This document shows positions 10,226 through 26,473 of a stretch of 64,000 nucleotides of DNA, in pieces. The first letter of the stretch is position 1. Each line of letters opens with the position of its first letter. A model generated the notes under the pieces. The model was not told the origin of the DNA and made no database searches. It saw nothing but the letters and a program-made list of their open reading frames with translations. The stretch covers positions 1,054,001-1,118,000 of the forward strand of contig NC_017030.1 of NCBI RefSeq assembly GCF_000255295.1. The letters are read 5' to 3'. Source of the stretch: Corallococcus coralloides DSM 2259. GTDB taxonomy: Bacteria; Myxococcota; Myxococcia; Myxococcales; Myxococcaceae. The position numbers were made by a program, and so were the translations under genes.

Positions 10226-10231
10226 CCCCCC

Positions 10232-11782
10232 GTGGACGCACGCAGAGACGTCATCCAAGGTTCCAAGACGGGCATCACCATCGCGGCCATGGCCGCGGCG
10301 CTGATGTCCGTGCTGGACATCTCCATCGTCAACGTGGCCTTGAGCGACATCCGCGCGAGCTTCGGCACGCCGTTGGATCAGATCGCCTGGGTGTCCACGG
10401 GCTACATGATGGCCAACGTGGTGGTCATCCCGATGACGGGCTGGCTGCAGCGCCGCTTTGGCTACCGGAAGTACTTCACCTTCTCCGTCATCCTCTTCAC
10501 GGTGGCCAGCGTGCTGTGCGGCCTGTCGTGGAACCTGACGTCACTGGTGGCCTTCCGCATCCTCCAGGGCATGGGCGGCGGCGCCATCATCCCCACGTCC
10601 CAGGCCATCCTCTTCGCCCGCTACCCGCGCGAGGAGCACGGCATGGCGGGTGCCCTCTTCGGCCTGGGCGCCGTGACGGGCCCGCTGCTGGGGCCCACCG
10701 TGGGCGGCCTGCTCATCGAAGCGGCCAGCTGGCACTGGATCTTCCTCATCAACGTGCCGGTGGGCCTCTTCGCCGCGTACATGGCGTGGCGCTACATCGA
10801 ACAGCCCCACTTCGAACCGTCCACGGAGAAGGTGGACAAGAACGGCATCGCGCTGCTCGCCGTGGGCATGGCCTGCCTCCAGTACGTGCTGGAGGAGGGC
10901 AACCGCGAGGACTGGTTCGACAGCCGGCTGATTACCCTGCTGGCGGTCATCGCGGGCATCGCGCTCATCACCTTCGTCGTCCACGAGCTGGAGACACCCA
11001 GTCCCGTGGTGGACCTGCGCGTGTTCGGCAACCGCAGCTACTCCGCGGCCACGGGGGTGAACTTCCTCGTGGGCACGGCGCTGTTCTCTGGCTCGTTCCT
11101 CTTCAGCCTCTTCTGCGGCTCCGTGATGCGCTACGAGGCATTGGACATCGGGCTCATCTTCCTCAAGGGCAGCGCCATCCAGATTCTGCTGATGCCGCTC
11201 ATCGGCAAGTTCGGAGGCAAGGTGGATGGCCGGTACCTGATTGGCTTCGGCATCCTGGGCATGAGCCTGTCCTTGTGGACCAACGGCCACCTGGCCACGC
11301 GCGTGGATGAAATCACCCTCATCACGCCGGTGTTCATCCGCGCCTGCTCGCTGGGCTTCATCTTCGTGCCGCTGTCGGTGATGGCGCTCAGCAACCTGCG
11401 TCCGGAGCAGCGAGGCAACGCGGCGGGCCTCTTCAACCTCACCCGCGAGCTGGGCGGCTCCATTGGCACCGCGTGGATGAGCAGCGCGCTCAGCCGCTCC
11501 ACCCAGGCCAACGTCACCGCCATCACCTCGCACGTGGACGTCTACGGGCAGGTGGCCCAGGAGCAGGTCGCCTCGATGACCGGCGCCATGGCGGCCAGGG
11601 GCGTGCTCAACCCCACGGGCGCCGCCTACGGCCTGTTGAGCCAGCGCATCAACGCGCAGGCGCTGGTGCGGGCCTTCAACGCGAACTTCCTCATCCTCGC
11701 CGCGCTGTTCGTCTGCGCCCTCGTCCTGGTGGTCATGCTCCAGAAGGCGGACCCGAACGTGAAGGTGGAAGGCGCGCACTAG
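10232..11782 (+). CDS. EmrB/QacA-type MFS multidrug transporter (DHA2)
   Basis: A 516-residue, probably 14-helix drug:proton antiporter of the DHA2 family. Helix 1 contains LDISIVNVALSDI, typical of EmrB. Motif C, the antiporter signature, is visible in helix 5 as LGAVTGPLLGPTVGG. Translation starts at a GTG 6 bp after the adaptor gene, so MarR, adaptor and pump form one operon. A strong hairpin after the stop closes it. The substrate is unknown; export of the nearby megasynthase product is possible but untested. Confidence 0.93.
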   Translation: MDARRDVIQGSKTGITIAAMAAALMSVLDISIVNVALSDIRASFGTPLDQIAWVSTGYMMANVVVIPMTGWLQRRFGYRKYFTFSVILFTVASVLCGLSWNLTSLVAFRILQGMGGGAIIPTSQAILFARYPREEHGMAGALFGLGAVTGPLLGPTVGGLLIEAASWHWIFLINVPVGLFAAYMAWRYIEQPHFEPSTEKVDKNGIALLAVGMACLQYVLEEGNREDWFDSRLITLLAVIAGIALITFVVHELETPSPVVDLRVFGNRSYSAATGVNFLVGTALFSGSFLFSLFCGSVMRYEALDIGLIFLKGSAIQILLMPLIGKFGGKVDGRYLIGFGILGMSLSLWTNGHLATRVDEITLITPVFIRACSLGFIFVPLSVMALSNLRPEQRGNAAGLFNLTRELGGSIGTAWMSSALSRSTQANVTAITSHVDVYGQVAQEQVASMTGAMAARGVLNPTGAAYGLLSQRINAQALVRAFNANFLILAALFVCALVLVVMLQKADPNVKVEGAH

Positions 11783-11805
11783 CAACGCGGTCGCTGGAAA
11801 CGACA

Positions 11806-11840
11806 AAGCGCGGGTCCCCAGGTAGCGGGGGCCCGCGCTT
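11806..11840. terminator. Bidirectional terminator between the pump and protease genes
   Basis: AAGCGCGGG and CCCC pair with GGGG and CCCGCGCTT around a 7-nt loop, each side with one bulged base. The hairpin lies between two convergent stops. The rightward side runs into CTTCGTTTC; the A-rich left flank gives a T-rich run in the other direction. Confidence 0.7.
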
Positions 11841-11867
11841 CTTCGTTTCAGGCGCTGGGGCAGACGA

Positions 11868-13403
11868 CTACCGGCGCCACTTCTGCGCGGCGGTGCCGTT
11901 GCACTCCCAGAGCTGCAGCGGGGTGCCGCTGGCGGAGTTGCCGCTGGTCACGTCCACGCACTTGTTGGCCTGGGGGTTCACCAGGTCACCAGCGCCGGAG
12001 AGGATGAACTGCTGCGCGGGGTTTCCGTTGCAGCTCACCAGCTGGATGGCCGTGCCGTTGGCGCTGGAGCCCCAGGCCACGTCCATGCACTTGCCGAACG
12101 CGCGCACGGTGCCGTCCGACATGAAGGTCCACCGCTGCGCGTTGGTGCCGTTGCAGTCCCACAGCTGCAGGCGGGTGCCGTCGTTGGTGTTGGAGTTCGG
12201 CACGTCGATGCACTTGTTCGCCAGGCCGATGATGGGACCGCCGGAGCCGCCACCGCCCGTGGTGGTGAGCGACAGGCCGTAGGCGTTCAGGATGGGGAGG
12301 AGCGGCTGGAAGACGGTGTTGCCGCCGGAGGAGCAGTTGCCGCCGGCGCCGGACGTCACGCCCTGCGCCTGGTTGCCGGACAGCCACGAGCCGCCGGAGT
12401 CACCGCCCTCCGCGCACGCGCTGGACGCCGTGAGGCCATACACCGGGCCCGCGGAGTAGTTCACCGTGACGTTCTTCCCCGTGATGACGCCGCAGCGCCA
12501 GCCGGTGGTGGAGCCCGAGCGACAGACGGACGCGTTGACGCCCGCCTCCTGCGAGCCCTGCACCAGCACGTTGCCGCCCGCGTAGTTGTTCACCCACGGC
12601 TGCGACCCCCAGGAGCCGTTGGTGCGCACCCAGGCGTAGTCGTTGCCGGGCCAGCTGGCCGCCACCACCGTGCCCTGCGCCACGCCGTTGAAGCCGCTGG
12701 TGCCCGTGCCCGGCCCGCCGCAGTGGCCCGCCGTCACGAAGCCGCCCGCCACCGGGAAGCCGATGGAGCAGCGCGAGCCGCCCGGGTAGTACGCGTCACC
12801 GCCGCGCAGGTCGTACACCGGCTTGAACTCCTCGCGTGACGGCACCGTCCGCACCGCGGCGTGCTTCACGCCCGCCTTCGCGACGAAGTCCGTGCCGCCC
12901 GTCAGCGCGGAGTCCTGCGTCAGGACCACCACGCTGTTCGTCATCACGTCCACGTACCAGGCGTGCACGGCGCGGCCCGCCATCCCGCTGTCGCGGTCCA
13001 GCTGGGCCTTCACCGCCTCCAGCTCCGCCTGCGTGTACTTCACCTTCCGCGGCTCCGCCCCCGCGCGGCGCACCGCGTCCGCGTCCGCGTCCGTCGTCAC
13101 GCCCACCACCAGCGCGCTGCCGTCCGCGTTCATCCACGCGCCGCCAAAGCGCTCGCCCAGCTGCGCGCGCAGGTTGCCCTCCACGCGCACCGCCGCGGCC
13201 TCCGACGCCAGCCGCTGCTTCGCGCCGTCCGCCGTCAGGCCCAGGTCCCGCTGCATCGCGGAGAGCAGGTCGGGCGACACGTCGTGCGCCAGCGCCGCTT
13301 CCGCGGGGGAGGGCGCCGCCATCGCCATCGAGGGAATGACGCTCAACGTGGCGCCAGCGAACAGCGCCGTCGCGGTGGAGAACAGCCCGGAGGTCCGCTT
13401 CAT
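11868..13403 (-). CDS. Secreted trypsin-like (S1 family) protease with C-terminal ricin-type lectin domain
   Basis: A 511-residue exoenzyme. A Sec signal peptide covers about residues 1-29 (MKRTSG start to AMAA). An alpha-lytic/streptogrisin-type propeptide follows to about 195. The catalytic domain has His227 in TAGHC, Asp255 in NDYAW and Ser336 in GGDSGGS, so the triad is intact. A TTTGGGGSGG linker near 380 leads to a ricin B beta-trefoil domain with repeated CxDV and QLW..C motifs, probably for binding glycans of prey or matrix. I chose the ATG at 13403 because it begins the signal peptide and has a CAGGA site; the longer frame adds an unlikely 23 residues. It probably acts in predation or peptide nutrition. 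Transcription likely begins in the AT-rich patch upstream. Confidence 0.93.
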   Translation of the reverse strand: MKRTSGLFSTATALFAGATLSVIPSMAMAAPSPAEAALAHDVSPDLLSAMQRDLGLTADGAKQRLASEAAAVRVEGNLRAQLGERFGGAWMNADGSALVVGVTTDADADAVRRAGAEPRKVKYTQAELEAVKAQLDRDSGMAGRAVHAWYVDVMTNSVVVLTQDSALTGGTDFVAKAGVKHAAVRTVPSREEFKPVYDLRGGDAYYPGGSRCSIGFPVAGGFVTAGHCGGPGTGTSGFNGVAQGTVVAASWPGNDYAWVRTNGSWGSQPWVNNYAGGNVLVQGSQEAGVNASVCRSGSTTGWRCGVITGKNVTVNYSAGPVYGLTASSACAEGGDSGGSWLSGNQAQGVTSGAGGNCSSGGNTVFQPLLPILNAYGLSLTTTGGGGSGGPIIGLANKCIDVPNSNTNDGTRLQLWDCNGTNAQRWTFMSDGTVRAFGKCMDVAWGSSANGTAIQLVSCNGNPAQQFILSGAGDLVNPQANKCVDVTSGNSASGTPLQLWECNGTAAQKWRR

Positions 13404-13460
13404 CGGGGTCCTGCCTTTCGTGCTGCGGGGAAGCCCGAAGCGAAACCCGACTGAGCCGCG

Positions 13461-13510
13461 AAGGTCAAACAATTCAAGAATTACTTAAATTCTCCGACAT
13501 TTTTGTGTGG
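13461..13510 (-). promoter_or_regulatory. AT-rich promoter region of the protease gene
   Basis: A sharply AT-rich stretch in otherwise GC-rich DNA, 60-105 bp upstream of the protease start. It contains the near-palindrome AATTC-AA-GAATT at 13471-13482. The composition and position suggest promoter and operator sequence; I cannot assign -35 and -10 boxes with confidence. Confidence 0.4.
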
Positions 13511-13536
13511 CCGAAGAAAGTCCCAGAAAACAAGAA

Positions 13537-13566
13537 GGCCCGGTGCGTCATGAGACGCACCGGGCC
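13537..13566 (-). terminator. Terminator of the lyase-like gene
   Basis: A perfect 13-bp stem, GGCCCGGTGCGTC with GACGCACCGGGCC, around a 4-nt loop. It lies 30 bp beyond the lyase stop. On the minus strand it is followed by a T-rich run, as expected for an intrinsic terminator. Confidence 0.8.
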
Positions 13567-13596
13567 TATGGAACTTGCTTCGGTGTCGAGCGGAAG

Positions 13597-14655
13597 TCAG
13601 CGCTTCGCGCGCGGGGCCAGCGCGCGGGCGGGGGCCCGGCGACGGCGCAGCGCGACAGCGCCCAGCATCAGCAGGGCACCGGCGAAGGGCAGGGTGCCGG
13701 ACGTGCCGGACGCGCTGCAGCCCCCCGCCATGGCGTCGGACGAGTCCGGCAGGCCATTGGGGTTGTTGGACACGGGCGTGGGGGTGGGGACGGAGGGGGT
13801 CTGTCCGCCCACGGTGGGCAGCTGCGGCGTGTTCGTCACCGGCGTCTCCGCCACCGGGGCCTCCACCGTCGGATCCTCCGCGGGGATGTTCGTGTCATCC
13901 GGCACGGGCGTGGGCGCGGGCGCGGGCTCCTCCACCGGCGCGGGCGCGGGCGGCATCACCTCATCGAGCGTCGTCGCCATGGTGAAGCCGTCGTGGTAGA
14001 TGGCGCCTTCGGGCTTGATGGCGGCGTCGCGGTACAGCCCCATCTTCAGGTAGTTCAGCTCCTTGCCGAACTGGTTGGCGCCGTAGGTCTTCGGCAGCAC
14101 GTGCTCGCCGTTGTGCCACAGCTCCACGAAGCCGACCTTCTTGTCCGAGGACCACTTCACGTGCAGCACGAAGTCGTGCCAGTTGCCCTTGTTGATGGAC
14201 GTCTGCCACAGCACGGGCGTGGTGTTGCCGCCCACGCGCAGGTTGATCTTGTCCCCGCGCACGAAGAACTCCAGCGGCGGTGAGCCACAGCAGCTCTCCT
14301 GGTGCCACTGGGTGATGACCTGCCACGAGTCATGCACCGGGTAGTTCGAGGGGAAGAGCGTGCTCCACTTGTAGTAGTACTCCTTCCCCTGCGTCTCGTG
14401 GGTCAGGTAGAGCAGCTCGTTGCGGTTGCCGCTGGCGTTGATGGGATTGTCGCCCTGCTTCACCGTGGCCTTGAGGGCGTACCTGCCGTCACGCACCACA
14501 TCTGTCACGACCTGCAAGCGGCTGTTGGCAACGGCCTGTTGGCGCGTCCACTGGGACGTGTTGCCGGTCTCGAAGTCGCCCTTCCAGATGACGCCAGCGA
14601 AAGACAGGGCCGGCATCAGGGAGGCCGCGGCAACGAGCTGAAGGAGTCGCTTCAA
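13597..14655 (-). CDS. Secreted heparin-lyase-like polysaccharide lyase with MYXO-CTERM tail
   Basis: A 352-residue secreted protein. The best start is a TTG at 14655 (LKRLLQL...), which has an AAAGGA site 9 nt upstream and begins a clear signal peptide ending near SFAG. Residues about 22-235 resemble the jelly-roll of heparin lyase I-like polysaccharide lyases, with DFETGN, WHQESC and a ..NWHDFVLHVKW strand. A Pro/Thr/Val-rich spacer of roughly 80 residues follows. The tail is a Gly-Cys motif, a hydrophobic segment and an arginine cluster (ALRRRR), the MYXO-CTERM sorting signal that leads to surface attachment or release in myxobacteria. The substrate is unknown; family identity rests on motif pattern only. 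It points the same way as the protease but has its own terminator. Confidence 0.7.
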   Translation of the reverse strand: MKRLLQLVAAASLMPALSFAGVIWKGDFETGNTSQWTRQQAVANSRLQVVTDVVRDGRYALKATVKQGDNPINASGNRNELLYLTHETQGKEYYYKWSTLFPSNYPVHDSWQVITQWHQESCCGSPPLEFFVRGDKINLRVGGNTTPVLWQTSINKGNWHDFVLHVKWSSDKKVGFVELWHNGEHVLPKTYGANQFGKELNYLKMGLYRDAAIKPEGAIYHDGFTMATTLDEVMPPAPAPVEEPAPAPTPVPDDTNIPAEDPTVEAPVAETPVTNTPQLPTVGGQTPSVPTPTPVSNNPNGLPDSSDAMAGGCSASGTSGTLPFAGALLMLGAVALRRRRAPARALAPRAKR

Positions 14656-15169
14656 ACAGGGGTCCTTTCGGTCCGGGTTGGGCCACGAGGACACGCGGCG
14701 GGGAAAAAGCCTTCCCGCCCCATCCCGCCTGCCAACCCCCTGCCATCCGCGCGCCCGGCGGGTCGCCTGGTGGGCCATGAGGCGGACAAGGCCCTGCCGC
14801 CCGTCACTTCCCCAGGCATGCCGAAGCGCGTGATTCCGGGTGGATGCGGGCGCTCAAACCATCCTTCGAGAGCAGCCGTGCAGCCGAGCCCCCGGGCGTC
14901 ATCCCCTCAACAACCTGACGGCCCGGCGCCCTGTCTCCCTGTCGCATCGGACGTGGGAAGTGAGGCCTTTTCTCAAGATCGGCGGAGCAGCCCGTCTATT
15001 GGTGCGTGTGTCGCCCAAAACATCCGATGCGCCTGTTCTCCCACCGCCTTGCTGCCCACCGCGTCATGGGACGCCTGGAGGCAGGGGACGGAGCCAGGTC
15101 GGCGTTCGTCGGAGGTTGGTGTAGAACGGCCCGGAGGGGCGGCAGGGGGGAGACGCCCGAGGGGACCGC
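14656..15169. other. 514-bp intergenic region, no gene recognised
   Basis: Divergent promoter region between the lyase-like gene and the CHAT gene. I see no convincing coding frame. Two 9-bp arms, CGCATCGGA (14943-14951) and TCCGATGCG (15023-15031), are inverted repeats 71 bp apart; this may be chance. Confidence 0.4.
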
Positions 15170-17920
15170 ATGGTGAAGCCGGCGAAGATGAGTCTCTGGG
15201 CGCTGGCACTGGCCATGCCCCTCCTGGCTGCTGGCGTCGCGGCCCTGAAGCCCCGGGCGCAGCCGCAGTCCCTTCCTGACACCTTCTGGACGGATCGCCG
15301 GGCGGCGGCCCGTATCGAAGCCCGCCTCACGCACCCGGAAGCGGACCGCTACCGCTCACGCGCCCCCGCGGGCGGCTGCCCGGTTCCCGCCGAGCCCATG
15401 CCCCTGGGCCCGCTCGCCCGCATGGAGGCCCAGCAGGACTGGGGCGGCATCGCGGCGGCGTATGCCCTGGAGGGTGAGTGGAACCAGGCGGCCTCCTTCC
15501 TGGAGCGCACGCCGGGCTCGCCGGAGCGCGACAGCGACCTGGCGGCCGTGGCGCTCGCGCGGGGGGACCATGAGCGGGCGCTGCGCCTCCTGGACGGCGC
15601 GCTCACCGCGAAGCCGAACCTCACGCAGGCGCTGTGGAACCGCGCGCTGGTGTTCCGGGAGATGGGGCTGACGCTGCGCGCGTCCGCGCTCTTCGAAGAG
15701 GTGGCGAAGCGCAATGAGCAGGGTTGGGGGCGCGAAGCCCACGCCCAGGCGCTGGCCCTTCGCGAGGCGACGCTGGAGCGCCAGCGCCAGTGGAAGGCCG
15801 CGCGCGACGCGACCCTGGCCCTGATGGAGGACCCCAAGGCGCCCCTGCCCATGGACGCGGCCCGGCAGATGCCCGGCACCGTGCGCGGCATCTTCTATGA
15901 CGTGGTGCGCGCCGCGGCGTCGAAGGAGCGCGCGCAGTCACTGCTGCCGCTGGCGAAGGAGCTGGACCGGCTGCATGGCGGCAGCGTGCTCACGGACTAT
16001 GTGCAGCGCGTGGCGAAGCGCGACTTCTCCCGCCGAAGCACGCTGGCGCAGCAGTACGCGGAGTCCCTGCGGGCGGGCCACGGGGTCCCGGATGCGCTCC
16101 TGGACCGGGCGCGGCTGTCCGGCGACGACGACATCTACCTGGGCGCCCTGCTGCGCGGCCGCAGCAATGCCACGCGGGACCTCCAGGACACGCTCGCGCG
16201 CATCCAGAAGACGAACGACCCCTGGTTCGCGGACATCGCGGAGCGGGACCAGGCGCGCAAGGAGATACTGGAGGGCGCGTGGTGGAAGGCCGAGCAGCGC
16301 TACTTCGGCGCGCTCCAGCGCTGCCGTGAGACGACGGTGTCGGTGCGCTGCCTGGATCTGGAGCGGCGGCTGGCCATGTTCTACGGCGACATGCAGCGCG
16401 TCTCCGAGGCCGAGCAGCACGCGAAGCAGCTGTGGGCGGGCGCCCGGCAGCTGCGCGAGTGGGACCTGGAGCTCAACGCCCTGGAGATCCTCAGCCACGT
16501 GGCGCGCTCCCGCAACGACCTGGGCAGCGCCCGCGCGTACCTGGAGGAGTGGATGGCCCGCGGGGCCTCGGTCAGCTGCTACTGGCCCCACGTGCAGCTG
16601 GCGCACCTGCACTACCAGGACCTGCGGCCAGAGGCCGCCCGGCGCGAGCTGGAGCTGGCCGCCGCCTGCTCCGACAACCCGATGGAGCCGATGTTCGGCG
16701 CGACGCTCGCGGAGCTGACGCGCACGAGCTCCGGCTCCGAGGACGCCGCGTGGATGCGGGCCATCTCCGCGAAGATGCTGGCGGGGCCGGTCGTCACGAA
16801 GAGCGACCAGGTCTACGAACGCTACCTGGAGGGCCGCTTCCTCCTGGAGCAGGACCGGAGCCAGGGCGAGGCGTTCCTGCGCGACACCATCACCCGGGCG
16901 GACGCGCTGCCGCGCGGGGACGCCCTGGCGCGCGAGTCGTGGGCGCTCGCCTATTCGTCGCTGGCGACGGACGCGGGCCGCGCTGGAGAGTTCCCCAAGG
17001 TGGTGACGCTGATGGCCGCCCAGCTGGGCACGCCCGTGCCCACCCGGTGCGCGCTGGCCGCCAGCGTCCACGCGGAGCGCACCGTGCTGGTCGCGCTGGG
17101 GCCCAAGGGCGAGGTGAAGGGCCACTACGATGCCTCGCGCAAGGTGGCGTTCGCCCACGCGGACTCGTCCCGGCTGGTGCCGGACGCCCTGCGCCAGACG
17201 CTCGCCAGCTGCGAGCGCGTGGATGTGCTCGCGTGGGCCCCCATCTTCGGGCGCACGGACCTGCTGCCGGCGGAGCTGGCGTGGAGCTTCCGGCTGGGCC
17301 GCGTCAGCGGTCCCCGCCCGGCCCCCGCGGCCACGCGCCGCCTGGTGGTGGCCGGCGTGGAGACGCCGTCGCTGCTGCAGCTGCCCCGGCTGCCCACGTG
17401 GACGCCGGACGCGGAGCCCGGCAGCGCTCCGCCGGACGTGCTGTCCGGTTCGGACGCCACGCCCTCGCGCGTGCTGGCGCGCATGGCGGACGCCACGGAG
17501 ATTGAAATCCACGCCCACGGCATCACCGACCCCACGCTCTCCGGCGCGTCGCTGGTGGTGCTGTCCCCGGAGGTCAACGGCCGCTACGCGCTCACCGCGG
17601 ACGTGGTGCGGGAGCACCGGCTCACCGGCGCGCCCACCGTGTTCCTGGCCGCGTGCAGCGCGGGCCGCACCACGGCCCTGCAGAGCACGGAGCCCTTCAG
17701 CCTGCCGGCGGCCTTCATTGACTCGGGCGCGAGAGCGGTGCTGGCCTCCACCGTGGACATCCCGGACGCGGCGGGCCGCTTCTTCGACGGTGTGCGCCGG
17801 CGCATCCACTCGGGCGTCCCCGCCGCCATCGCGCTGCGCGACGAGCGCCAGGCGTGGCTGTCCCGCGACGCCCGGGCCGGGTGGACGCGGGCCGTGCTGC
17901 TGGTCGAAAACGCCGAGTGA
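15170..17920 (+). CDS. Membrane-anchored CHAT-domain peptidase with helical-repeat body
   Basis: A 916-residue protein. The ATG is preceded by an AGGGGA site. Residues 8-26 form one hydrophobic helix, so the rest is probably exported or anchored in the periplasm. Residues about 40-200 form a TPR-like module that is clearly homologous to the C-terminal part of the anti-sigma factor at 19927-20757; shared landmarks are EARL, RDSDLA.VAL and QALWNR. More helical repeats fill the middle (about 200-640). The C-terminal CHAT (caspase-HetF-associated) domain has the catalytic His783 in IHAHG and Cys829 in LAACSAG, the expected dyad spacing. CHAT proteins are caspase-like cysteine peptidases, often tied to stress or death signalling. 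The substrate is unknown; the nearby anti-sigma factor is the obvious candidate to test. Confidence 0.88.
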   Translation: MVKPAKMSLWALALAMPLLAAGVAALKPRAQPQSLPDTFWTDRRAAARIEARLTHPEADRYRSRAPAGGCPVPAEPMPLGPLARMEAQQDWGGIAAAYALEGEWNQAASFLERTPGSPERDSDLAAVALARGDHERALRLLDGALTAKPNLTQALWNRALVFREMGLTLRASALFEEVAKRNEQGWGREAHAQALALREATLERQRQWKAARDATLALMEDPKAPLPMDAARQMPGTVRGIFYDVVRAAASKERAQSLLPLAKELDRLHGGSVLTDYVQRVAKRDFSRRSTLAQQYAESLRAGHGVPDALLDRARLSGDDDIYLGALLRGRSNATRDLQDTLARIQKTNDPWFADIAERDQARKEILEGAWWKAEQRYFGALQRCRETTVSVRCLDLERRLAMFYGDMQRVSEAEQHAKQLWAGARQLREWDLELNALEILSHVARSRNDLGSARAYLEEWMARGASVSCYWPHVQLAHLHYQDLRPEAARRELELAAACSDNPMEPMFGATLAELTRTSSGSEDAAWMRAISAKMLAGPVVTKSDQVYERYLEGRFLLEQDRSQGEAFLRDTITRADALPRGDALARESWALAYSSLATDAGRAGEFPKVVTLMAAQLGTPVPTRCALAASVHAERTVLVALGPKGEVKGHYDASRKVAFAHADSSRLVPDALRQTLASCERVDVLAWAPIFGRTDLLPAELAWSFRLGRVSGPRPAPAATRRLVVAGVETPSLLQLPRLPTWTPDAEPGSAPPDVLSGSDATPSRVLARMADATEIEIHAHGITDPTLSGASLVVLSPEVNGRYALTADVVREHRLTGAPTVFLAACSAGRTTALQSTEPFSLPAAFIDSGARAVLASTVDIPDAAGRFFDGVRRRIHSGVPAAIALRDERQAWLSRDARAGWTRAVLLVENAE

Positions 17921-17933
17921 CCCGGCGCGAAGG

Positions 17934-18941
17934 TCAGGCAGGGGGCTCCAGATGCGTGTTGCCGCCGGGAACACGGAAGTGGTGGAAGGTGACGCTGGCG
18001 CTCACGTCCAGCGCCTTCACCCAGTGCCACCAGCCCACGGGCAGGAACACCATGTCCCCCGGCTCCAGCACCGCCTCCAGCACCGTGGCCTCCGCGTAGA
18101 GCGGATGCAGGGTCAGGTCCGGCGCGTCCGCGTTCACGTGGCTGAAGGTGCCCCGGTGCGGGTACACCCGGTGGCGCTCGAAGGACGGCACCAGCCGCAC
18201 GTGCTTGCGGCCCATCACCTGGCCCAACAGGATGTTCATGTTGTCGTGGTGCAGCGGGGTGATGGTGCCCGCCGGCCCCAGGAGCAGCGTCAGCATGTCC
18301 TGGCGCAGGTCCGGTTCGATGATGCCCGCAGGGGCCCGCAGGTCCTCGCGCAGCGGCGACAGCCCGCCCTCGCGCCAGTTCTCGTTGCGCGGCACCATGT
18401 AGTAGTCGTTCGTCCGCGTCCCCGTCTCCAGCAGGGTGAGGAAGTCGGAGAACGGCATCCGCGAGCGGTGCCGGTCCTGGAAGGCCGCGTGCTCCGGATC
18501 CGCGTCGCGGCCCACCATCACCTCCACCTCCACGCTCCCCAGCCGCTCGCGGAAGTACGTGAGCGACCAGCGCTGGAGCGCCGGCCAGTCCGCCATCATC
18601 CCGCGCAGCACCACCGGCCGGTGACCGAAGTAGTAGCGCTGGAAGAACTCCTCGGGGCTCACCCCGTGGCGCACCTCCAGCTCGCGGCCCCCGTCCTGCG
18701 CCCGCAGCGCGCTGTAGGCGTCCATCAGCGACTCCATCCAGCCGAAGTGCCGGGCCACCTGCCGGCAGGCCCGGAAGTACGGATGGGCGCCCACCGCCGC
18801 CACCTCCGCCCGGGCCACCGCCGGGTCCACACCGGACGACACCAGCACCTTCTGTACGTCTTCCTCCGTGACCCCCAGCGCCAGGTTCTCCGCCAACCAC
18901 TGCCGCCACTCGGGGCGCAGCTGGGACGTGTCTTCGTTCAT
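17934..18941 (-). CDS. JmjC-like cupin (cupin_8) putative Fe(II)/2-oxoglutarate hydroxylase
   Basis: A 335-residue protein with an AAGGAG ribosome site 6 nt before the ATG at 18941. An N-terminal helical region (about 8-80) precedes a cupin_8/JmjC double-stranded beta-helix. The iron ligands are visible as HHD at 231-233 (H-x-D with His231 and Asp233) and a distal His306 in VGWWHW. A substrate-strand pattern RPVVLRGMMADWP at 108-120 is typical of FIH/JmjC-like enzymes. These enzymes hydroxylate Asn, Asp, Arg or His side chains of proteins or peptides. It is convergent with the CHAT gene and divergent from a small ORF at 19088, which could be a substrate. No signal peptide is seen, so it is cytoplasmic. 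Confidence 0.88.
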   Translation of the reverse strand: MNEDTSQLRPEWRQWLAENLALGVTEEDVQKVLVSSGVDPAVARAEVAAVGAHPYFRACRQVARHFGWMESLMDAYSALRAQDGGRELEVRHGVSPEEFFQRYYFGHRPVVLRGMMADWPALQRWSLTYFRERLGSVEVEVMVGRDADPEHAAFQDRHRSRMPFSDFLTLLETGTRTNDYYMVPRNENWREGGLSPLREDLRAPAGIIEPDLRQDMLTLLLGPAGTITPLHHDNMNILLGQVMGRKHVRLVPSFERHRVYPHRGTFSHVNADAPDLTLHPLYAEATVLEAVLEPGDMVFLPVGWWHWVKALDVSASVTFHHFRVPGGNTHLEPPA

Positions 18942-19087
18942 TCGGAACTCCTTGAAATCCTTGGAGGCAGGGGCCGGGGGGCCCCTGCTGCCGGGAGGGC
19001 CGTCCATGTTATGGACGGCCCCAAAGTCCCAATCCACCCAGCCTCGGTTTACGCAGGACTCCCCTCGTAGCAGGAGAAGAAGATCCC

Positions 19088-19261
19088 ATGACCTCCGGAG
19101 ACGTGTCGTCCGTTTCCCCCGGTGCCTTCGAACCGGACACCAGCGCCCCGCATGTGAAGAACTCGTACCCCACCTGCAGCGAGCGCGGCCCGCGCCGCCG
19201 CCGCCCGCTGCCGCCGCCGTCGGTGCCCCCCCTGTTGGAGGGGGGGGACGGGGCTCGCTGA
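19088..19261 (+). CDS. Putative small peptide gene (57 residues)
   Basis: A short frame with a good ribosome site (AGGAG, 11 nt before the ATG). The predicted peptide has a Ser/Asp/Pro-rich first half, one HVKNSYPTCSERG segment with its only Cys, an Arg-rich run and a Pro-rich end. It is transcribed divergently from the JmjC-like cupin and followed 24 bp later by an intrinsic terminator. It could be a substrate of that enzyme, a leader peptide or a spurious frame. It matches no family I know. Its last codons run through a C7/G8 hairpin. Confidence 0.4.
   Translation: MTSGDVSSVSPGAFEPDTSAPHVKNSYPTCSERGPRRRRPLPPPSVPPLLEGGDGAR
19226..19247. repeat. C7/G8 homopolymer hairpin inside the small ORF
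   Basis: Seven Cs (19226-19232), a 7-nt spacer, then eight Gs (19240-19247) form a very stable potential hairpin near the end of the small ORF. Homopolymer runs this long are prone to slippage and would shift the last residues of the peptide. Confidence 0.6.
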
Positions 19262-19284
19262 GCCTCCTGCCGGGCAGGCCTGTC

Positions 19285-19303
19285 TGCCCTTCCGGGCATT
19301 TTT
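19285..19303 (+). terminator. Intrinsic terminator after the small ORF
   Basis: TGCCC (19285-19289) pairs with GGGCA (19294-19298) around TTCC and is followed by five Ts (19299-19303). It separates the small ORF from the sigma gene, which must therefore have its own promoter in the 70 bp after it. Confidence 0.6.
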
Positions 19304-19372
19304 CTCTCAAGAAACGAACCGCTCGGCGTCTTTAGTCAGGAAAGCCCACCAGTCACTTCGGGGCCTTGGGTC

Positions 19373-19930
19373 ATGGCCAATCTCTTCAACCGGGAAAAGC
19401 GCCACTTCGAGGCGTTCATCCAGCGACACCGCCCCAGCCTGCTGGCGGTGGCGCGGCGGTTGTGCGCTCGCGGCGCCCTGGACCCGGAGGACCTGGTCCA
19501 GGAGGCCTTCGAGCGGGCGTTGCCGGAGTTTGGCCACCTCAAGGACCGGACGGAAGCGGCGTGCGCGGCGTGGCTGTGCACGACCATGACCAACCGGTTC
19601 CTGGACCACTGCCGCCGGCAGCGCACGGAGAGCCGGGGGCTGCCGCACCTGGCGCTGGTGCAGGACCTGCCGGTGACGGGGGATGGCGACCAGGAGAACT
19701 GGGAGCTGGTGGGCAACGACGCGTTCCAGGCGGCCATCGAGCAGCTCAAGCCGCACCTGCGGGACGCGTACAGGCTTCACGCGGAAGGCCGCCGCTATCA
19801 GGCCATCGCTGAACATTTCAACGTTCCCGTGGGAACCGTGGGCAGCTGGCTGACGCTGGCGCGCCGGGACCTGAGGGAACTGCTCCTCCCGAGCGTGGCG
19901 GTAGCCCGGGAGCGGGGGGTCCAGTCATGA
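19373..19930 (+). CDS. ECF-type RNA polymerase sigma factor
   Basis: A 185-residue ECF sigma factor. Region 2 is recognisable by DPEDLVQEAFERALPEF (about 38-54) and the following Trp-rich helix. Region 4 has a helix-turn-helix, YQAIAEHFNVPVGTVGSWL, shown here only in part as the diagnostic element. The stop overlaps the start of the downstream anti-sigma gene (ATGA), so the two are translationally coupled, as usual for a sigma and its inhibitor. It lacks the Cys-rich tail of the other ECF factor in this window. The stimulus is unknown; the anti-sigma architecture points to a signal sensed outside the cytoplasm. Confidence 0.92.
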   Translation: MANLFNREKRHFEAFIQRHRPSLLAVARRLCARGALDPEDLVQEAFERALPEFGHLKDRTEAACAAWLCTTMTNRFLDHCRRQRTESRGLPHLALVQDLPVTGDGDQENWELVGNDAFQAAIEQLKPHLRDAYRLHAEGRRYQAIAEHFNVPVGTVGSWLTLARRDLRELLLPSVAVARERGVQS

Positions 19931-20757
19931 ACGCGCATTGCACCCGGTTGCATCTCTTCATGGACGGCGAACTGTCCGAGTCCGACGCCGAAGGCTTCCG
20001 GAACCACCTGCCGCGCTGTGCCGCCTGCGAGAGCGGCCTCAGGGACCTGCTCCAGTTGGAGCTGCTGGCGGCGCGGGCCCTGGGCACGGGCGTGGCGGAA
20101 GCGCCGGCCGCGAAGCCGGAGGGCAACGTGGTGTCGCTGGGCGCGTGGGTGCGCAAGAACGCGCGCGTGGTGGCGCCGCTGGCCATGGCCGCCAGCCTCT
20201 GCGCCGTCTTCGTGCCGCGCATGATGCCCGCCGCGGACGTGCCGGCGGTCGTCTTCCTGGAGAACCAGACCACCCGCGAGCTGGAGGCCCGCCTGTCTGA
20301 TCCGCGCGCGGACCAGTGGCGCCGCTACAGCCCCATGCGCGGTGGCGCGGACGGCGTGGAGGCCGGAAAGGGCACCCTGCCGCTGCGTCCGCTGGCGGAG
20401 ATGGAGGAGCGCAAGGACTTCCGCGGCATCGTCGCGGCCTACGTGCTGCACGGCCAGTGGCAGCAGGCGCAGGCGGTGCTGGCGCGCGAGCCCGCGTCGC
20501 TGGCGCGCGACAGCGACCTGGCGGTGGTGGCGCTGCAGGACGGCCGCTACCAGGACGCGCTGGCGCTGTTGGACCCCGTGGTGCGCGCGGATCCGCGCAA
20601 CCCGCAGGCGCTGTGGAACCGCGGCCTCGCGCTGCGCGCCCTGCACCAGGAAGCCCGCGCCGCGCGCGACTTCGACCAGGTGGCCGCGCTGGGCGAGCCG
20701 GGCTGGAGCGACGAAGCGCGCAAGCTGGCGGAAGAGCTGCGCGCCGCCGCTCGCTGA
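19927..20757 (+). CDS. Transmembrane zinc-finger anti-sigma factor with C-terminal TPR-like module
   Basis: A 276-residue protein. The N-terminal zf-HC2 anti-sigma zinc motif is His27-x3-Cys31-x2-Cys34 (HLPRCAAC). A single membrane helix lies at about 81-97. The periplasmic part (about 110-276) is a TPR-like module homologous to residues 40-200 of the CHAT peptidase at 15170-17920: matching blocks are LEARLSDPRAD, RDSDLAVVAL and QALWNRGL. It should hold the upstream sigma factor inactive until the outer part senses a signal or is cut. The same module in a nearby peptidase suggests that both bind one ligand or each other. Start fixed by the ATGA overlap. Confidence 0.9.
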   Translation: MNAHCTRLHLFMDGELSESDAEGFRNHLPRCAACESGLRDLLQLELLAARALGTGVAEAPAAKPEGNVVSLGAWVRKNARVVAPLAMAASLCAVFVPRMMPAADVPAVVFLENQTTRELEARLSDPRADQWRRYSPMRGGADGVEAGKGTLPLRPLAEMEERKDFRGIVAAYVLHGQWQQAQAVLAREPASLARDSDLAVVALQDGRYQDALALLDPVVRADPRNPQALWNRGLALRALHQEARAARDFDQVAALGEPGWSDEARKLAEELRAAAR

Positions 20758-20883
20758 AGCACCCTGGATTCCCCCGCGCGTGCGAGCGTCCACCACCGGG
20801 CGCTTTCGCGCGGGGTGCGTGACTCGTTCCTCGGGATGACGTGACAGGCTGCTGGGGTTGTCGGAACACTCCAGGAGCCGCCC

Positions 20884-22554
20884 ATGCCCGAGTCTTCATC
20901 CCGAGCTTCCACCGACTACGCGTCCACCTACCGTGACTTCCGGTGGGAGCGGCCGGCGCACTTCAACTTCGCCACGGACGTCATCGACCGGCACGCGGCC
21001 GAGCGGCCCCTGGCTCCCGCGCTCCAGTGGTCCGACGAATCCGGGCGCTCCCAGCGCTTCAGCTTCCAGGACCTGAAGGAGCGCTCGCTGCACGCGGCGC
21101 GCTTCCTCACCGGGCTGGGCCTGAAGCGCGGCGACCGGGTCTTCATCCTGATGCCGCGCGTGCCGGAGTGGTGGTTCCTGGTGCTGGGCTGCATCCGCGC
21201 GGGCATCGTCTTCATGCCCGGCACGCCCATGCTCACCGCCAAGGACATCCGCTACCGGCTGGAGGTCTCCGGCGCGAAGGCCGTCCTCACCGACGGCAGC
21301 TGCCTGGACCGCTTCGAGGGCGTGCTGGGCCAGGCCCCCGGCGTGACGACGTGGGTGTCCACCGGCGACGCGCCTTCTCCGTGGACGCGCTATGCGCCGG
21401 AGCCCCTGGGGGAGTCCCTGGCGGAGTCGCAGGCCACGGCGTTTCCGCCCACGAAGGCGGAGGATCCGCTGCTCATCTACTTCACGTCCGGCACCACCGG
21501 CATGCCGAAGATGGTGCTGCACACCCAGTCCAGCTACGGCCAGGGGCACCTCATCACCGGCCGCTACTGGTTGGACTTGAAGCCGGAGGACCGGCACCTC
21601 ACGCTCAGCGACACCGGCTGGGCGAAGTGCGCGTGGGGCAAGCTCTTCGGTCCGTGGAGCGTGGGCGCGTGCAACGTCGTCTACGACTTCCGCGGCCGGT
21701 TCGACCCCGTGGGCTTCCTGAAGGTGCTGGAGCGGGAGAAGGTCACCACCTTCTGCGCGCCGCCCACCGCGTGGCGTGCGCTGGTGCTCCAGGACCTGAA
21801 GGCGGTGGACCTGTCCTCGCTGCGCCACTCGCTGAGCGCGGGTGAGCCGCTCAACCCGGAGGTCATCCAGACGTGGAAGGAGGCCACCGGGCTGCACATC
21901 CGCGAGGGCTACGGCCAGACGGAGACGGTGGTCATCGTGGGCATCTTCCCCGGGATGGAGCCGCGCGTGGGCTCCATGGGCAGGCCGTCCCCGGGCTTCA
22001 CCGTGGCCGTCATCGACGAGCACGGCAACGAAGTGGCGGACGGGCAGGAGGGCGACATCGCCGTGCGCGTGAAGCCGGAGCGGCCGGTGGGCCTGTTCGC
22101 GGGCTACCTCAACGACGACGCGGCCAACGCCGCCAGCAGCCGGGGGGACTGGTACGTCACCGGCGACCGTGCGGTGCGAGACGCGGACGGCTACCTGTGG
22201 TTCGTGGGGCGCTCGGACGACGTCATCAAGACGTCCGGCTACCGCGTGGGCCCCTTCGAGGTGGAGTCCGCGCTGATTGAGCACCCGGCGGTGGCCGAGT
22301 CCGCCGTCATCGGCGTGCCGGACGACAAGCTGGGCCACCGCATCAAGGCGTACGTGCTGCTCACGCCGGGCCACACGCCGTCACCCCAGCTCGCGCAGGA
22401 GCTGCAGGACTTCGTGAAGAAGACCACGGCGCCCTACAAGTACCCGCGTGAGATTGAGTTCGTCACGGAGCTTCCCAAGACGGTGAGCGGGAAGATCCGC
22501 CGCGCCGAGCTGCGCGCCACCCAGAAGAACCAGGCGGCGCGCGAGCAGGGCTGA
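20884..22554 (+). CDS. AMP-forming acyl-CoA synthetase
   Basis: A 556-residue ANL-superfamily ligase, the usual length. It activates a carboxylic acid with ATP to the acyl-adenylate and then makes the CoA thioester. The P-loop is FTSGTTGMPK near residue 200, the A5-type motif is EGYGQTET near 342, GDWYVTGDRA lies in the hinge region, and the catalytic lysine is in TVSGKIRR near the C-terminus. Overall it resembles medium-chain (ACSM-like) acyl-CoA synthetases rather than acetyl-CoA synthetase, but the chain length is not certain. CAGGAG precedes the ATG. It converges on gnd with only 4 bp between the stops. Confidence 0.9.
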   Translation: MPESSSRASTDYASTYRDFRWERPAHFNFATDVIDRHAAERPLAPALQWSDESGRSQRFSFQDLKERSLHAARFLTGLGLKRGDRVFILMPRVPEWWFLVLGCIRAGIVFMPGTPMLTAKDIRYRLEVSGAKAVLTDGSCLDRFEGVLGQAPGVTTWVSTGDAPSPWTRYAPEPLGESLAESQATAFPPTKAEDPLLIYFTSGTTGMPKMVLHTQSSYGQGHLITGRYWLDLKPEDRHLTLSDTGWAKCAWGKLFGPWSVGACNVVYDFRGRFDPVGFLKVLEREKVTTFCAPPTAWRALVLQDLKAVDLSSLRHSLSAGEPLNPEVIQTWKEATGLHIREGYGQTETVVIVGIFPGMEPRVGSMGRPSPGFTVAVIDEHGNEVADGQEGDIAVRVKPERPVGLFAGYLNDDAANAASSRGDWYVTGDRAVRDADGYLWFVGRSDDVIKTSGYRVGPFEVESALIEHPAVAESAVIGVPDDKLGHRIKAYVLLTPGHTPSPQLAQELQDFVKKTTAPYKYPREIEFVTELPKTVSGKIRRAELRATQKNQAAREQG

Positions 22555-22558
22555 GGGA

Positions 22559-23986
22559 CTACTTCAGCCAGTCCGTGTGCACGAAGCCGGCGTCGGGCTT
22601 GTCCCGGCGCTGGTAGGTGTGCGCGCCGAACGCGTCGCGCTGGGCCTGGGTGAGGTTCTGCGGCAGCTCCGGGCTGCGGTAGCTGTCCAGGTACGCCAGG
22701 CTGCTGCTGAACACCGGCACGGGGATGCCTGACTTCGTCGCGACGCCCACGAACTTGCGCCACGCCGGGGCCATCTTGTCCAGCACGGGCGAGAAGGCTT
22801 CGGACACCATCAGGTTGGGCAGCGTGGACTGCTGCTGGAAGGACTCGCGCAGCGGGGTGAGCAGCTTCGCGCGGATGATGCAGCCGCCCCGCCAGATGCG
22901 CGCCATCTCCGCCAGCGACACGCCCCACTTGTACTCGTCCGACGCCGCCTGGATGAGCCGCATGCCCTGCGCGTACGTCACCACGCGCGCCGCGTAGAGC
23001 GCGTCATGCGCCCACTGCGCCAGTTCCTTCTTCTCCTCCGAGGACAGGGAGATGTCGGGGCCGTGGAGCTTCTTGCTCGCGGCCACGCGCTCGTCCTTGC
23101 GCGAGGACAGGTTGCGCGCGTCCAGCGCGGACGCGATGGAGGGCACCGGCACGCCCAAATCGAGCGCCACCTGCACCGTCCACTTGCCCGTGCCCTTCTG
23201 GCCGGCCTTGTCCAGCACCAGGTCCACCAGCGGCTTGCCCGTCTCCGGGTCGCGCTTGCGCAGCACCTTGATGGTGGTCTCCAGGAGGAACGACTCGGCG
23301 ATGCCCTCGTTCCACTTGGAGAACAGGTCGGCCAGCGTCGCGGCGTCCAGGCCCAGGCCGCGGCGGAGCACGTCGTACGTCTCCGCGAGCAGCTGCATGT
23401 CCGCGTACTCGATGCCGTTGTGCACCATCTTCACGAAGTGGCCCGCGCCCTCCGGGCCCACGTGGGTGACGCACAGGCCTTCCTCGCTGCGCGCGGCGAT
23501 GGCCTCCAGCACGGGCTGCACCAGCGCGTACGCGTCCTTGGGACCGCCGGGCATGATGGACGGGCCGTTGCGCGCGCCCTCCTCACCGCCGGACACGCCG
23601 ATGCCCAGGAAGTGGAAGCCCTTCTCCTTGCACAGGGCCTCGCGGCGGCGCGTGTCCAGGTACCAGGAGTTGCCCGCGTCCATGATGACGTCGCCGGGCG
23701 ACAAGAGCGGGAACAGCCGGCCCATCATCTCGTCCACGGGGGCGCCCGCGGTGATCATCAGGAGGATGCGGCGCGGGCGCTCCAGGCCGGCGACGAACTT
23801 CTCCAGCTCCGCGAAGCCCTGCAGGGCCTGCTTCGGGTTCTCCTGCTGGACCTGCTGGAGCTTCTCCGGGTGGCGGTCCCATACGGCGACGCGGAAGCCG
23901 TGGTCCGCGATGTTGAGGGCCAGGCTCGCGCCCATCACGCCCATGCCCGCCACGCCGAACTGCGCCGGCTTCGTCTGTTCGCTCAT
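22559..23986 (-). CDS. gnd: 6-phosphogluconate dehydrogenase, decarboxylating
   Basis: A 475-residue enzyme, full family length, converting 6-phosphogluconate and NADP+ to ribulose-5-phosphate, CO2 and NADPH. The N-terminal Rossmann motif is GVAGMGVMGASLALN at about 10-24. The substrate-site signature GGEEGARNGPSIMPGG and the FVKMVHNGIEYADMQ helix are intact, the latter holding the catalytic Lys. GGAGG precedes the ATG. It is the last gene of the leftward zwf-pgl-gnd operon; 21 bp separate it from pgl. Confidence 0.97.
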   Translation of the reverse strand: MSEQTKPAQFGVAGMGVMGASLALNIADHGFRVAVWDRHPEKLQQVQQENPKQALQGFAELEKFVAGLERPRRILLMITAGAPVDEMMGRLFPLLSPGDVIMDAGNSWYLDTRRREALCKEKGFHFLGIGVSGGEEGARNGPSIMPGGPKDAYALVQPVLEAIAARSEEGLCVTHVGPEGAGHFVKMVHNGIEYADMQLLAETYDVLRRGLGLDAATLADLFSKWNEGIAESFLLETTIKVLRKRDPETGKPLVDLVLDKAGQKGTGKWTVQVALDLGVPVPSIASALDARNLSSRKDERVAASKKLHGPDISLSSEEKKELAQWAHDALYAARVVTYAQGMRLIQAASDEYKWGVSLAEMARIWRGGCIIRAKLLTPLRESFQQQSTLPNLMVSEAFSPVLDKMAPAWRKFVGVATKSGIPVPVFSSSLAYLDSYRSPELPQNLTQAQRDAFGAHTYQRRDKPDAGFVHTDWLK

Positions 23987-24007
23987 CGTTCCCTCCAGAG
24001 GGCCGCC

Positions 24008-24673
24008 TCACCCGTGGGCGGCGGGATCCAACATCCACTGCGTGTTCGTCACGTGCGACGCGGGCAGGGACATATCGCCCGCGAGGATGCGCCGCATGGC
24101 GTCCCGCTTGCCCTCGCCGGCCACCAGCCCCAGCACCGCCCCCGCGCCCTGGAGCACGGGGAAGGTCAGCGTCATCCGCCACGGCGGCGGCTTCGCGCTC
24201 TGCTCCACCGCCAGCACCCGCCGCGTGCGCTCCTGCAGGGCGGGGTGGCCGGGCATGAGGCTCGCGGTGTGGCCGTCCTCGCCCACGCCGATGAGCACCA
24301 CGTCCAGCTTCGCGGGCAGCGTCTTCTCGTAGTCGCGCGCGGCGGCGTCGCGGTCCGTGCGCTCGCCCTGCATGCGGAACACCTGCGCGTCCGGCAGCTT
24401 CAGCGGCTCAAGCAGCGACTGCTTCACCAGCAGGTAGTTGCTGTCCTTGTGGTCCGGCGGCACGAAGCGCTCGTCCACGAAGTACACGTCCACGCGCTCC
24501 CAGGGGAGCTTGTGGTCCGCGAGCATCCGGTACGCGGGCTTGGGCGTGTTGCCGCCGGACAGGGCCAGGCTCACGCGCGGCTTCGTCGCGAGCGCCTTTT
24601 CCAGCTCGCGCGCCATCCAGTCCGCGGCCTCGCGGGCCAGCTGCTCGGAGGGAACGATGAGGGGCTGGCTCAT
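24008..24673 (-). CDS. pgl: 6-phosphogluconolactonase
   Basis: A 221-residue sugar-isomerase-fold enzyme hydrolysing 6-phosphoglucono-lactone to 6-phosphogluconate. Family motifs are LALSGGNTPKPAYRML near residue 50, VDVYFVDERFVPPDHKDSN near 75 and LIGVGEDGHTASLMPG near 135, cited only by their conserved cores. I placed the start at 24673 because its ATG overlaps the zwf stop (ATGA), giving translational coupling; the alternative is four codons longer. Confidence 0.95.
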   Translation of the reverse strand: MSQPLIVPSEQLAREAADWMARELEKALATKPRVSLALSGGNTPKPAYRMLADHKLPWERVDVYFVDERFVPPDHKDSNYLLVKQSLLEPLKLPDAQVFRMQGERTDRDAAARDYEKTLPAKLDVVLIGVGEDGHTASLMPGHPALQERTRRVLAVEQSAKPPPWRMTLTFPVLQGAGAVLGLVAGEGKRDAMRRILAGDMSLPASHVTNTQWMLDPAAHG

Positions 24674-26211: not shown

Positions 26212-26262
26212 GCGGTTCTCCCTCCGGGTTCGCCGGGCACCTTAAGGCGCTAATCTGGCGGC

Positions 26263-26281
26263 CCTGCAAGCGCATTGCAGG
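26263..26281. promoter_or_regulatory. Inverted repeat upstream of zwf, candidate operator
   Basis: CCTGCAA and TTGCAGG form a perfect 7-bp inverted repeat with a 5-nt centre, 52 bp upstream of the zwf start and about 190 bp before the divergent acyltransferase. It fits a dimeric regulator site; the regulator is unknown. Confidence 0.4.
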
Positions 26282-26473
26282 AGAATGATGCGGGCCTGAC
26301 GTCTTGCCTGCCCCGGCGCTCGGGTGCTCCGCCGGGTTCCCTCGGGCTCCCCTCGGGCTCTGTCGGAGGGCGCGCGGGCGGCCGGGCCGGCGTGAGCTGG
26401 CTGCCTGGAACGTGGTACTCCTGGCGGACCGGACGCCTCCGGCGTCGCGCTGAACGGAAGCTCCTTCTCTCGC

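Follow-up and report, generated by a model that had tools for sequence, protein, structure and literature searches.

A DdvA-type architecture divided between two genes in Corallococcus coralloides: a CHAT protein and a transmembrane anti-sigma factor with a shared module

We analyzed a stretch of 64,000 nucleotides from Corallococcus coralloides DSM 2259 (contig NC_017030.1, positions 1,054,001 to 1,118,000 of the forward strand; hereafter the window, in whose numbering features are placed), which carries genes for a CHAT protein, a sigma factor of the extracytoplasmic function (ECF) group and a transmembrane anti-sigma factor. All three genes, and the features within them, lie on the plus strand. 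The CHAT protein gene (15170..17920; 916 aa; PF12770, E=9e-13) encodes an N-terminal hydrophobic helix, a module shared with the anti-sigma factor, an array of tetratricopeptide repeats (TPR) and a C-terminal CHAT domain; a Pfam scan of this 916-residue open reading frame (ORF) revealed no zf-HC2 domain. The ECF sigma factor gene (19373..19930; 185 aa) matches Sigma70_r2 (E=6.5e-15) and Sigma70_r4_2 (E=1.6e-11). Its stop codon overlaps the start codon of the anti-sigma factor gene (19927..20757; 276 aa; zf-HC2, E=3e-6) in the sequence ATGA at 19927-19930, as an earlier note on this DNA had reported. The anti-sigma factor is built from a zf-HC2 domain (19927..20079; PF13490; C5 and H27-x3-C31-x2-C34), a membrane helix and the shared module, directly followed by the stop, and neither the Pfam scan nor the letters of the 276-residue ORF contain a CHAT domain. 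Residues H27, C31 and C34 are invariant across 53 aligned sequences. The CHAT gene does not directly adjoin the sigma gene, as a Cupin_8/JmjC-type gene and a small conserved ORF intervene. NCBIfam provided no telling family for either the CHAT or the anti-sigma protein.

Residues 12-200 of the CHAT protein and 85-274 of the anti-sigma factor are identical in 81 of 193 aligned columns (42%; E=4e-35 by BLASTP). The blocks EARL, RDSDLA, QALWNR and GW..EA, from which the earlier note had argued for a common module, are present in this alignment. By BLASTP and further alignments, the module is about 165 residues long and occupies approximately residues 36-200 of the CHAT protein (15275..15769) and 106-274 of the anti-sigma factor (20242..20748). 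It contains TPR repeats (TPR_16 and TPR_19, both below the Pfam cut-offs). Generic TPR similarity was considered as the source of the match and rejected. A search of the whole host genome (10,080,619 bases) gave six strong copies of the module, the query counted, at E 1.7e-20 or better; because the next match falls sharply to E=0.013, the similarity goes beyond that of TPR proteins in general. In both proteins the module follows a strongly hydrophobic stretch taken as a membrane helix, as the earlier note had also described; our assignment is based on hydropathy, and model confidence is low in this part. The predicted membrane helix of the CHAT protein comprises approximately residues 8-26 (15191..15247, bounds approximate; hydropathy scan) and lies in a region of low AlphaFold2 confidence; alternatively, it may be a cleaved signal peptide. 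That of the anti-sigma factor comprises approximately residues 79-99 (20161..20223), according to both hydropathy and an AlphaFold2 helix at 79-99 in blocks with a predicted local distance difference test (pLDDT) score of 59-67. In the hydropathy scan, basic residues precede the hydrophobic stretch in both proteins, and therefore the module, together with the CHAT domain where present, should face outside the cytoplasm.

The catalytic-type residues of the CHAT protein are His783 (codon 17516..17518, in HAHG) and Cys829 (codon 17654..17656, in LAACSAG), and inspection of the codons and letters confirmed that this dyad is intact. Both residues are conserved in 73 of 75 CHAT ORFs, and the remaining two ORFs are truncated at these positions. 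The first His of the HxH motif is Val in 2 of the 73 relatives, while the second His and the Cys are present in all 73.

To place the two proteins among known structures, we compared their AlphaFold2 models using Foldseek. The model of the CHAT protein (pLDDT 88.6) matched DdvA best (8rot_A; E=2.5e-45; template modeling (TM) scores 0.83/0.85), which predicts a DdvA fold for this protein, and residues 18-913 also match 8rot_B by sequence (E=6e-115). The top match of the anti-sigma model (pLDDT 85.4) was likewise DdvA (8rot_A; E=1.1e-5, TMq 0.52). According to the PDB titles, 8rot is a cryo-electron microscopy (cryo-EM) structure of the transmembrane anti-sigma factor DdvA and 8rw5 is dimeric. 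The chain 8rot_B has 991 residues, begins with a 68-residue stretch identical to 8rlz, which is named antisigma factor DdvA, and matches residues 2-1002 of P0007, a fused paralogue in the host genome, almost over its full length (E=9e-146). DdvA of Myxococcus xanthus, whose ECF sigma partner is DdvS, has the same domain order as its fused relatives, with zf-HC2, a membrane helix, the TPR module and CHAT in one chain. In this family, the zf-HC2 domain holds the ECF sigma factor, and the TPR-CHAT part, which is caspase/separase-like, is extracytoplasmic. At the window locus this plan is found in two genes. The anti-sigma factor has the zf-HC2 domain directly 3' of the ECF sigma gene, and the helix followed by the TPR module, whereas the CHAT protein has the helix, the TPR module and the His-Cys dyad, and lacks zf-HC2. 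The window locus is a split DdvA-type architecture, and because zf-HC2 and CHAT sit in two genes, the pair is a split relative of DdvA and not DdvA itself. A further difference, seen in the alignment, concerns the HxHG motif, in which the window CHAT protein has both His residues and DdvA only the second, the first being Ala.

The earlier note had instead compared the locus with the TPR-CHAT peptidase Csx29 and its partner Csx30, but the structural comparison places DdvA nearer. In the type III-E CRISPR system termed CASP, Csx29 is the protease, Csx30 the inhibitor and CASP-sigma the sigma factor, and activation by RNA occurs via Cas7-11 (PMC10028731; here and below, articles with PMC numbers are cited from excerpts). 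This scheme, with an ECF sigma factor under an inhibitor and a TPR-CHAT protease, resembles the window locus, and the Csx29/Craspase chains, which with separase follow DdvA in the Foldseek ranking (TM about 0.2-0.4; Csx29/Craspase with E from 1e-8), belong to the same fold class. A relay of the type III-E kind, in which RNA activates a TPR-CHAT protease in the cytoplasm to cleave a Csx30-like protein that inhibits an RpoE-like sigma factor, is nevertheless very improbable here. The overall TM score to Csx29 is about 0.3, far below that to DdvA; the CHAT protein carries its own hydrophobic helix; and the inhibitor in the window is a zf-HC2 membrane protein, which is not known as Csx30-like. No Cas protein occurs among the nine neighboring products scanned (8942-27196), which are metabolic, transport or secreted-enzyme genes, and PADLOC returned nothing for seven proteins, the cas scan being confined to these. 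On the TM scores, the Csx29-type CRISPR relay was rejected as the closest match. The earlier idea is right in kind and better anchored to DdvA than to Csx29. Inactivation of DdvA makes DdvS active (PMC4374960), and DdvS regulates a defense island that includes CRISPR-Cas (PMC12288465), a target that differs from the nine gene products around the window locus.

To find relatives, we scanned GTDB genomes with one short peptide pattern of the module as seed and kept the best 80 of 87 relatives, as 79 loci. Among these best 80 of 87, all loci belong by name to Myxococcota, save for two contigs labeled Comamonas. These two (L029 and L053, from the BNCN01 record of Comamonas sp. KCTC 72670) group with Myxococcus loci, and their label or assembly is probably wrong. 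Together with the host genome, the kept relatives provided 105 module-bearing ORFs, which we classed by domain content. Forty of them are fused, with zf-HC2 and CHAT in one chain, and in 39 of these the zf-HC2 domain starts within 60 nt of an ECF sigma stop codon (the exception, L097, had no sigma match). CHAT without zf-HC2 was found in 35 ORFs (17 from loci of the window type, 12 associated with three cupin genes, 3 others and 3 that are probably contig-cut fused ORFs), and anti-sigma factors without CHAT account for 29 (20 without the mid region and 9 with part of the TPR region); the last ORF is a contig-cut module. With a cut-off of E 1e-15, a profile of zf-HC2 plus module matched 68 of 179 genomes examined from the phylum; these represent 11 of 83 genera. 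The host genome itself holds four module copies besides the CHAT/anti-sigma pair. Two are fused paralogues, each directly 3' of an ECF sigma gene (L011 9565-12573 and L012 11004-7927), with the layout zf-HC2, membrane helix, module, TPR array and CHAT; the third (L009) is a short anti-sigma factor without CHAT, and the fourth (L010) is a CHAT protein without zf-HC2 that adjoins three Cupin_8 genes. At loci of the L009 type (L009 7230-9366; L038, L042, L044, L049, L051, L057, L059 and L067), an ECF sigma gene is followed by a short zf-HC2 ORF and then by a protein with zf-HC2, helix and module but no CHAT, giving two zf-HC2 proteins per sigma factor. Two tandem units of sigma and fused TPR-CHAT anti-sigma genes occur at each of L036, L037, L039, L041, L046 and L073 (Myxococcus and Pyxidicoccus).

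The split arrangement is stable across genera. All 15 loci that are long enough (the window, L020, L021, L023-L025 and L027-L035; the sequence of L022 and L026 stops within the cupin gene, and that of L054 starts there) share the gene order CHAT, Cupin_8, sigma, anti-sigma. They come from four genera and one Comamonas-labeled record, and zf-HC2 and CHAT reside on separate genes in the window and in all 15 long-enough loci. Of 16 same-genus genomes, 14 have the matches to the CHAT protein and the anti-sigma factor near each other on a single contig (contig ends interrupt the CHAT gene in one of these, G007), and in G003 and G015 they lie on different contigs. The earlier note had suggested a search for genomes in which CHAT directly adjoins sigma and anti-sigma genes; co-occurrence in the same neighborhood is supported, but not direct adjacency, given the cupin gene and the small ORF between them. 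In the Myxococcus, Pyxidicoccus and Comamonas-labeled loci, the anti-sigma factor retains about half of the mid TPR region (profile positions 192-194 of 397) and no CHAT, and in Corallococcus and Citreicoccus it ends right after the module. The partial TPR region in some genera makes the anti-sigma factor look like a trimmed form of a once longer ancestral chain. In a tree of the module, the CHAT clade (17 rows) and the anti-sigma clade (16 rows) of the window type are sisters with modest support (88/77). The pair likely arose by duplication and reciprocal loss, and the shared module is best explained if the two proteins are descendants of one DdvA-like chain. The L009-type anti-sigma factors cluster with the fused proteins, for which a second loss of CHAT is the simplest explanation, in unrooted trees that do not strictly separate gain from loss. 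No split CHAT/anti-sigma pair is described in the excerpts consulted from PMC10028731, PMC8999054, PMC7406223, PMC4374960, PMC8156234 and PMC12288465.

A promoter-like pair, CTCAAG-N15-CGTCT, is found on the plus strand both at 14972..14997, 198 nt upstream of the CHAT start codon, and at 19306..19331, 67 nt upstream of the sigma start codon. The relaxed pattern TCAAG-N14-16-CGTCT has exactly these two matches in the 64-kb window, both on the coding strand, against a chance mean of 0.18, and 3 of 100 shuffles reached two. Among window-type loci, [CT]TCAAG-N15-CGTCT lies upstream of the sigma gene in 15 of 15 and upstream of the CHAT gene in 12 of 13 that could be tested, a count that leaves out L024-L027, whose contigs start too near CHAT. 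The Citreicoccus locus L028 has a near match, CTCAAG-N15-CGTTG, before CHAT. No further match was present on either strand of 17 window-type loci, and in particular no copy at the Cupin_8 gene. The other 63 loci (L036-L098) contain three matches in 2.18 million strand-bases: one is the sigma promoter of L054, a window-type locus, and the others lie at a near-identical place in L037 and L039. The motif is absent from the promoter regions of the L009-, L010- and L011-type genes, which have other conserved blocks. Five genomes scanned whole yielded 8-12 matches each, always including the CHAT and sigma sites; in the host genome, the other seven of the nine matches form no clear regulon set. A copy with near-identical letters occurs in two genomes (L113, G000:C1:1797252-1797277, and G184:C46:31164-31189), and at L113 it precedes a GMC-oxidoreductase-like gene, named by eye. 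Because the same motif precedes both genes, the CHAT gene is probably expressed under the control of the neighboring sigma factor.

These observations bear on whether the two proteins still cooperate. Common descent alone accounts for the similarity of the modules in the tree, and the CHAT protein and the anti-sigma factor could be relics of a duplication whose likeness and neighborhood are purely historical. The opposite-strand gene that separates CHAT from the sigma and anti-sigma genes fits such a history, as do the L009-type anti-sigma factors, for which no CHAT gene was found in the sequence stretches examined. We consider this explanation improbable, since the gene order is conserved in every long-enough locus of several genera and the common motif recurs at nearly all testable loci and in each of the five whole genomes.

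For the alternative that they do cooperate, we judge the chances evenly balanced that the CHAT protein is an envelope protease or sensor that acts on the adjacent anti-sigma factor and is controlled by the same sigma factor. A more specific relay can be proposed tentatively, and we hold it to be possible but somewhat doubtful in its entirety: a caspase-like CHAT protease, itself derived from an anti-sigma factor, would recognize its sister anti-sigma factor in the cell envelope through paired homologous TPR modules, shed it at a conserved membrane-proximal Arg and be induced by the freed sigma factor, which would make the response a self-reinforcing switch. In what we consider the most likely mechanism, the CHAT protein would pair with the anti-sigma factor in the periplasm via the homologous modules. 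Upon an envelope signal, the CHAT site would cut the anti-sigma factor in the exposed segment that adjoins the membrane on its periplasmic side, around Arg138 (codon 20338..20340, in YSPMRGG), which lies 39 residues past the membrane helix; that the chain is cut at this residue is a guess. The cut would leave a stub of about 39 residues as a substrate for a site-2 protease of the M50 or RseP type, and the freed sigma factor would activate its own operon and the production of more CHAT protein. Intramembrane cleavage of the M50 type would follow the action of CHAT on the anti-sigma factor; M50 proteases are encoded in the host genome. The Arg is found in the loop of 15 of 16 window-type anti-sigma factors, 10 of 10 of the L009 type (one contig-cut) and 4 of 4 others, as well as in 38 of 40 fused and 3 of 3 contig-cut proteins, compared with 1 of 3 other CHAT proteins and 0 of 17 window-type CHAT proteins.

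The proposed relay resembles RseA/DegS/RseP-type proteolysis, in which a transmembrane anti-sigma factor is opened first outside and then inside the membrane (PMC10028731), with the difference that the site-1 step is here assigned, as a proposal, to a CHAT protein that is itself a relative of the anti-sigma factor. For the ECF54 group, CHAT proteins have been described in the neighborhood of the sigma genes, and control by proteolysis was proposed (PMC8999054). The ECF54 trait of a CHAT context without an anti-sigma factor is not seen in the window, where an anti-sigma gene overlaps the sigma gene and shares a module with CHAT. The excerpt of PMC7406223 does not mention CHAT.

Instead of cutting the anti-sigma factor, the CHAT protein might be a non-cutting sensor or scaffold, or might cut itself or another periplasmic protein, while a DegS-type site-1 protease opens the anti-sigma factor. 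DdvA is titled dimeric, so that pairing without cutting is possible, and the first His of HxH is replaced in DdvA, by Ala, and in the two relatives with Val. In addition, no sigma gene was found near the CHAT genes of the 12 three-cupin loci in the sequence stretches examined, and such CHAT proteins may have other substrates. On the other hand, a pure scaffold would not need the dyad, whose second His and Cys occur in all CHAT ORFs long enough to include them, and the anti-sigma factor, having no CHAT domain, must obtain a CHAT function from elsewhere. We regard this explanation as rather unlikely. DdvA is reportedly proposed, in a paper of 2024, to cut itself in trans before RseP, and its active site is said to have been called incomplete.

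Several points weigh against the relay. Arg138 opens a loop modeled with low confidence (pLDDT of 77 in residues 131-140 and 59 in 141-150) and thus stands at its edge, not in its middle; the loop Arg is also kept in 11 of 12 three-cupin CHAT proteins, which have no zf-HC2, and DdvA has Met at this position in an uncertain alignment. The presence of M50 proteases adds little, because 14 of 14 control genomes carry them as well. The topology of both proteins is derived from hydropathy. The CHAT and sigma genes form no operon. The motif was first recognized in the sigma promoter and only afterwards noticed upstream of CHAT, and was therefore not defined blind; a control with the reversed pattern yields 2-5 matches per genome versus 8-12 for the motif. 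The L009-type anti-sigma factors, with no CHAT gene found nearby, imply that anti-sigma factors of the family can be maintained with no CHAT gene next to them. Finally, in a longer alignment the sisterhood of the two window-type clades is neither shown nor rejected (approximately unbiased (AU) test, p=0.249).

In DdvA, the candidate enzyme and its possible substrate occupy one chain, which makes it hard to test whether CHAT is a working protease and what it would cut. In the split pair, retained across several genera, one gene can be altered without touching the other, which allows a clean test. If the relay is true, an ECF sigma pathway outside CRISPR would have a caspase-like enzyme as its site-1 protease, and it would be clear by which route a single protein evolved into a relay of two.

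The Cupin_8/JmjC-type gene (17934..18941, minus strand; 335 aa; PF13621, E=2e-40) is convergent with the CHAT gene and divergent from the small ORF and the sigma gene. As an opposite-strand gene between them, it led us to reject a single operon of CHAT and sigma. It is found at the same position in 17 window-type loci, with two contigs ending inside it. The small ORF (19088..19261, plus strand; 57 aa), situated between the cupin gene and the sigma promoter, has AGGAG upstream of its ATG and no Pfam match. It is present in 16 window-type loci and absent from all other loci searched, and the relatives that were read out are 51-66 aa long with a conserved VK-x-x-Y-x-x-C block. A link between CHAT and Cupin_8 genes also recurs elsewhere: at 12 loci (L010 5589-11547; L040, L043, L052, L055, L056, L068, L070, L071, L074, L075 and L078), a CHAT protein without zf-HC2 is encoded convergently to three Cupin_8 genes.

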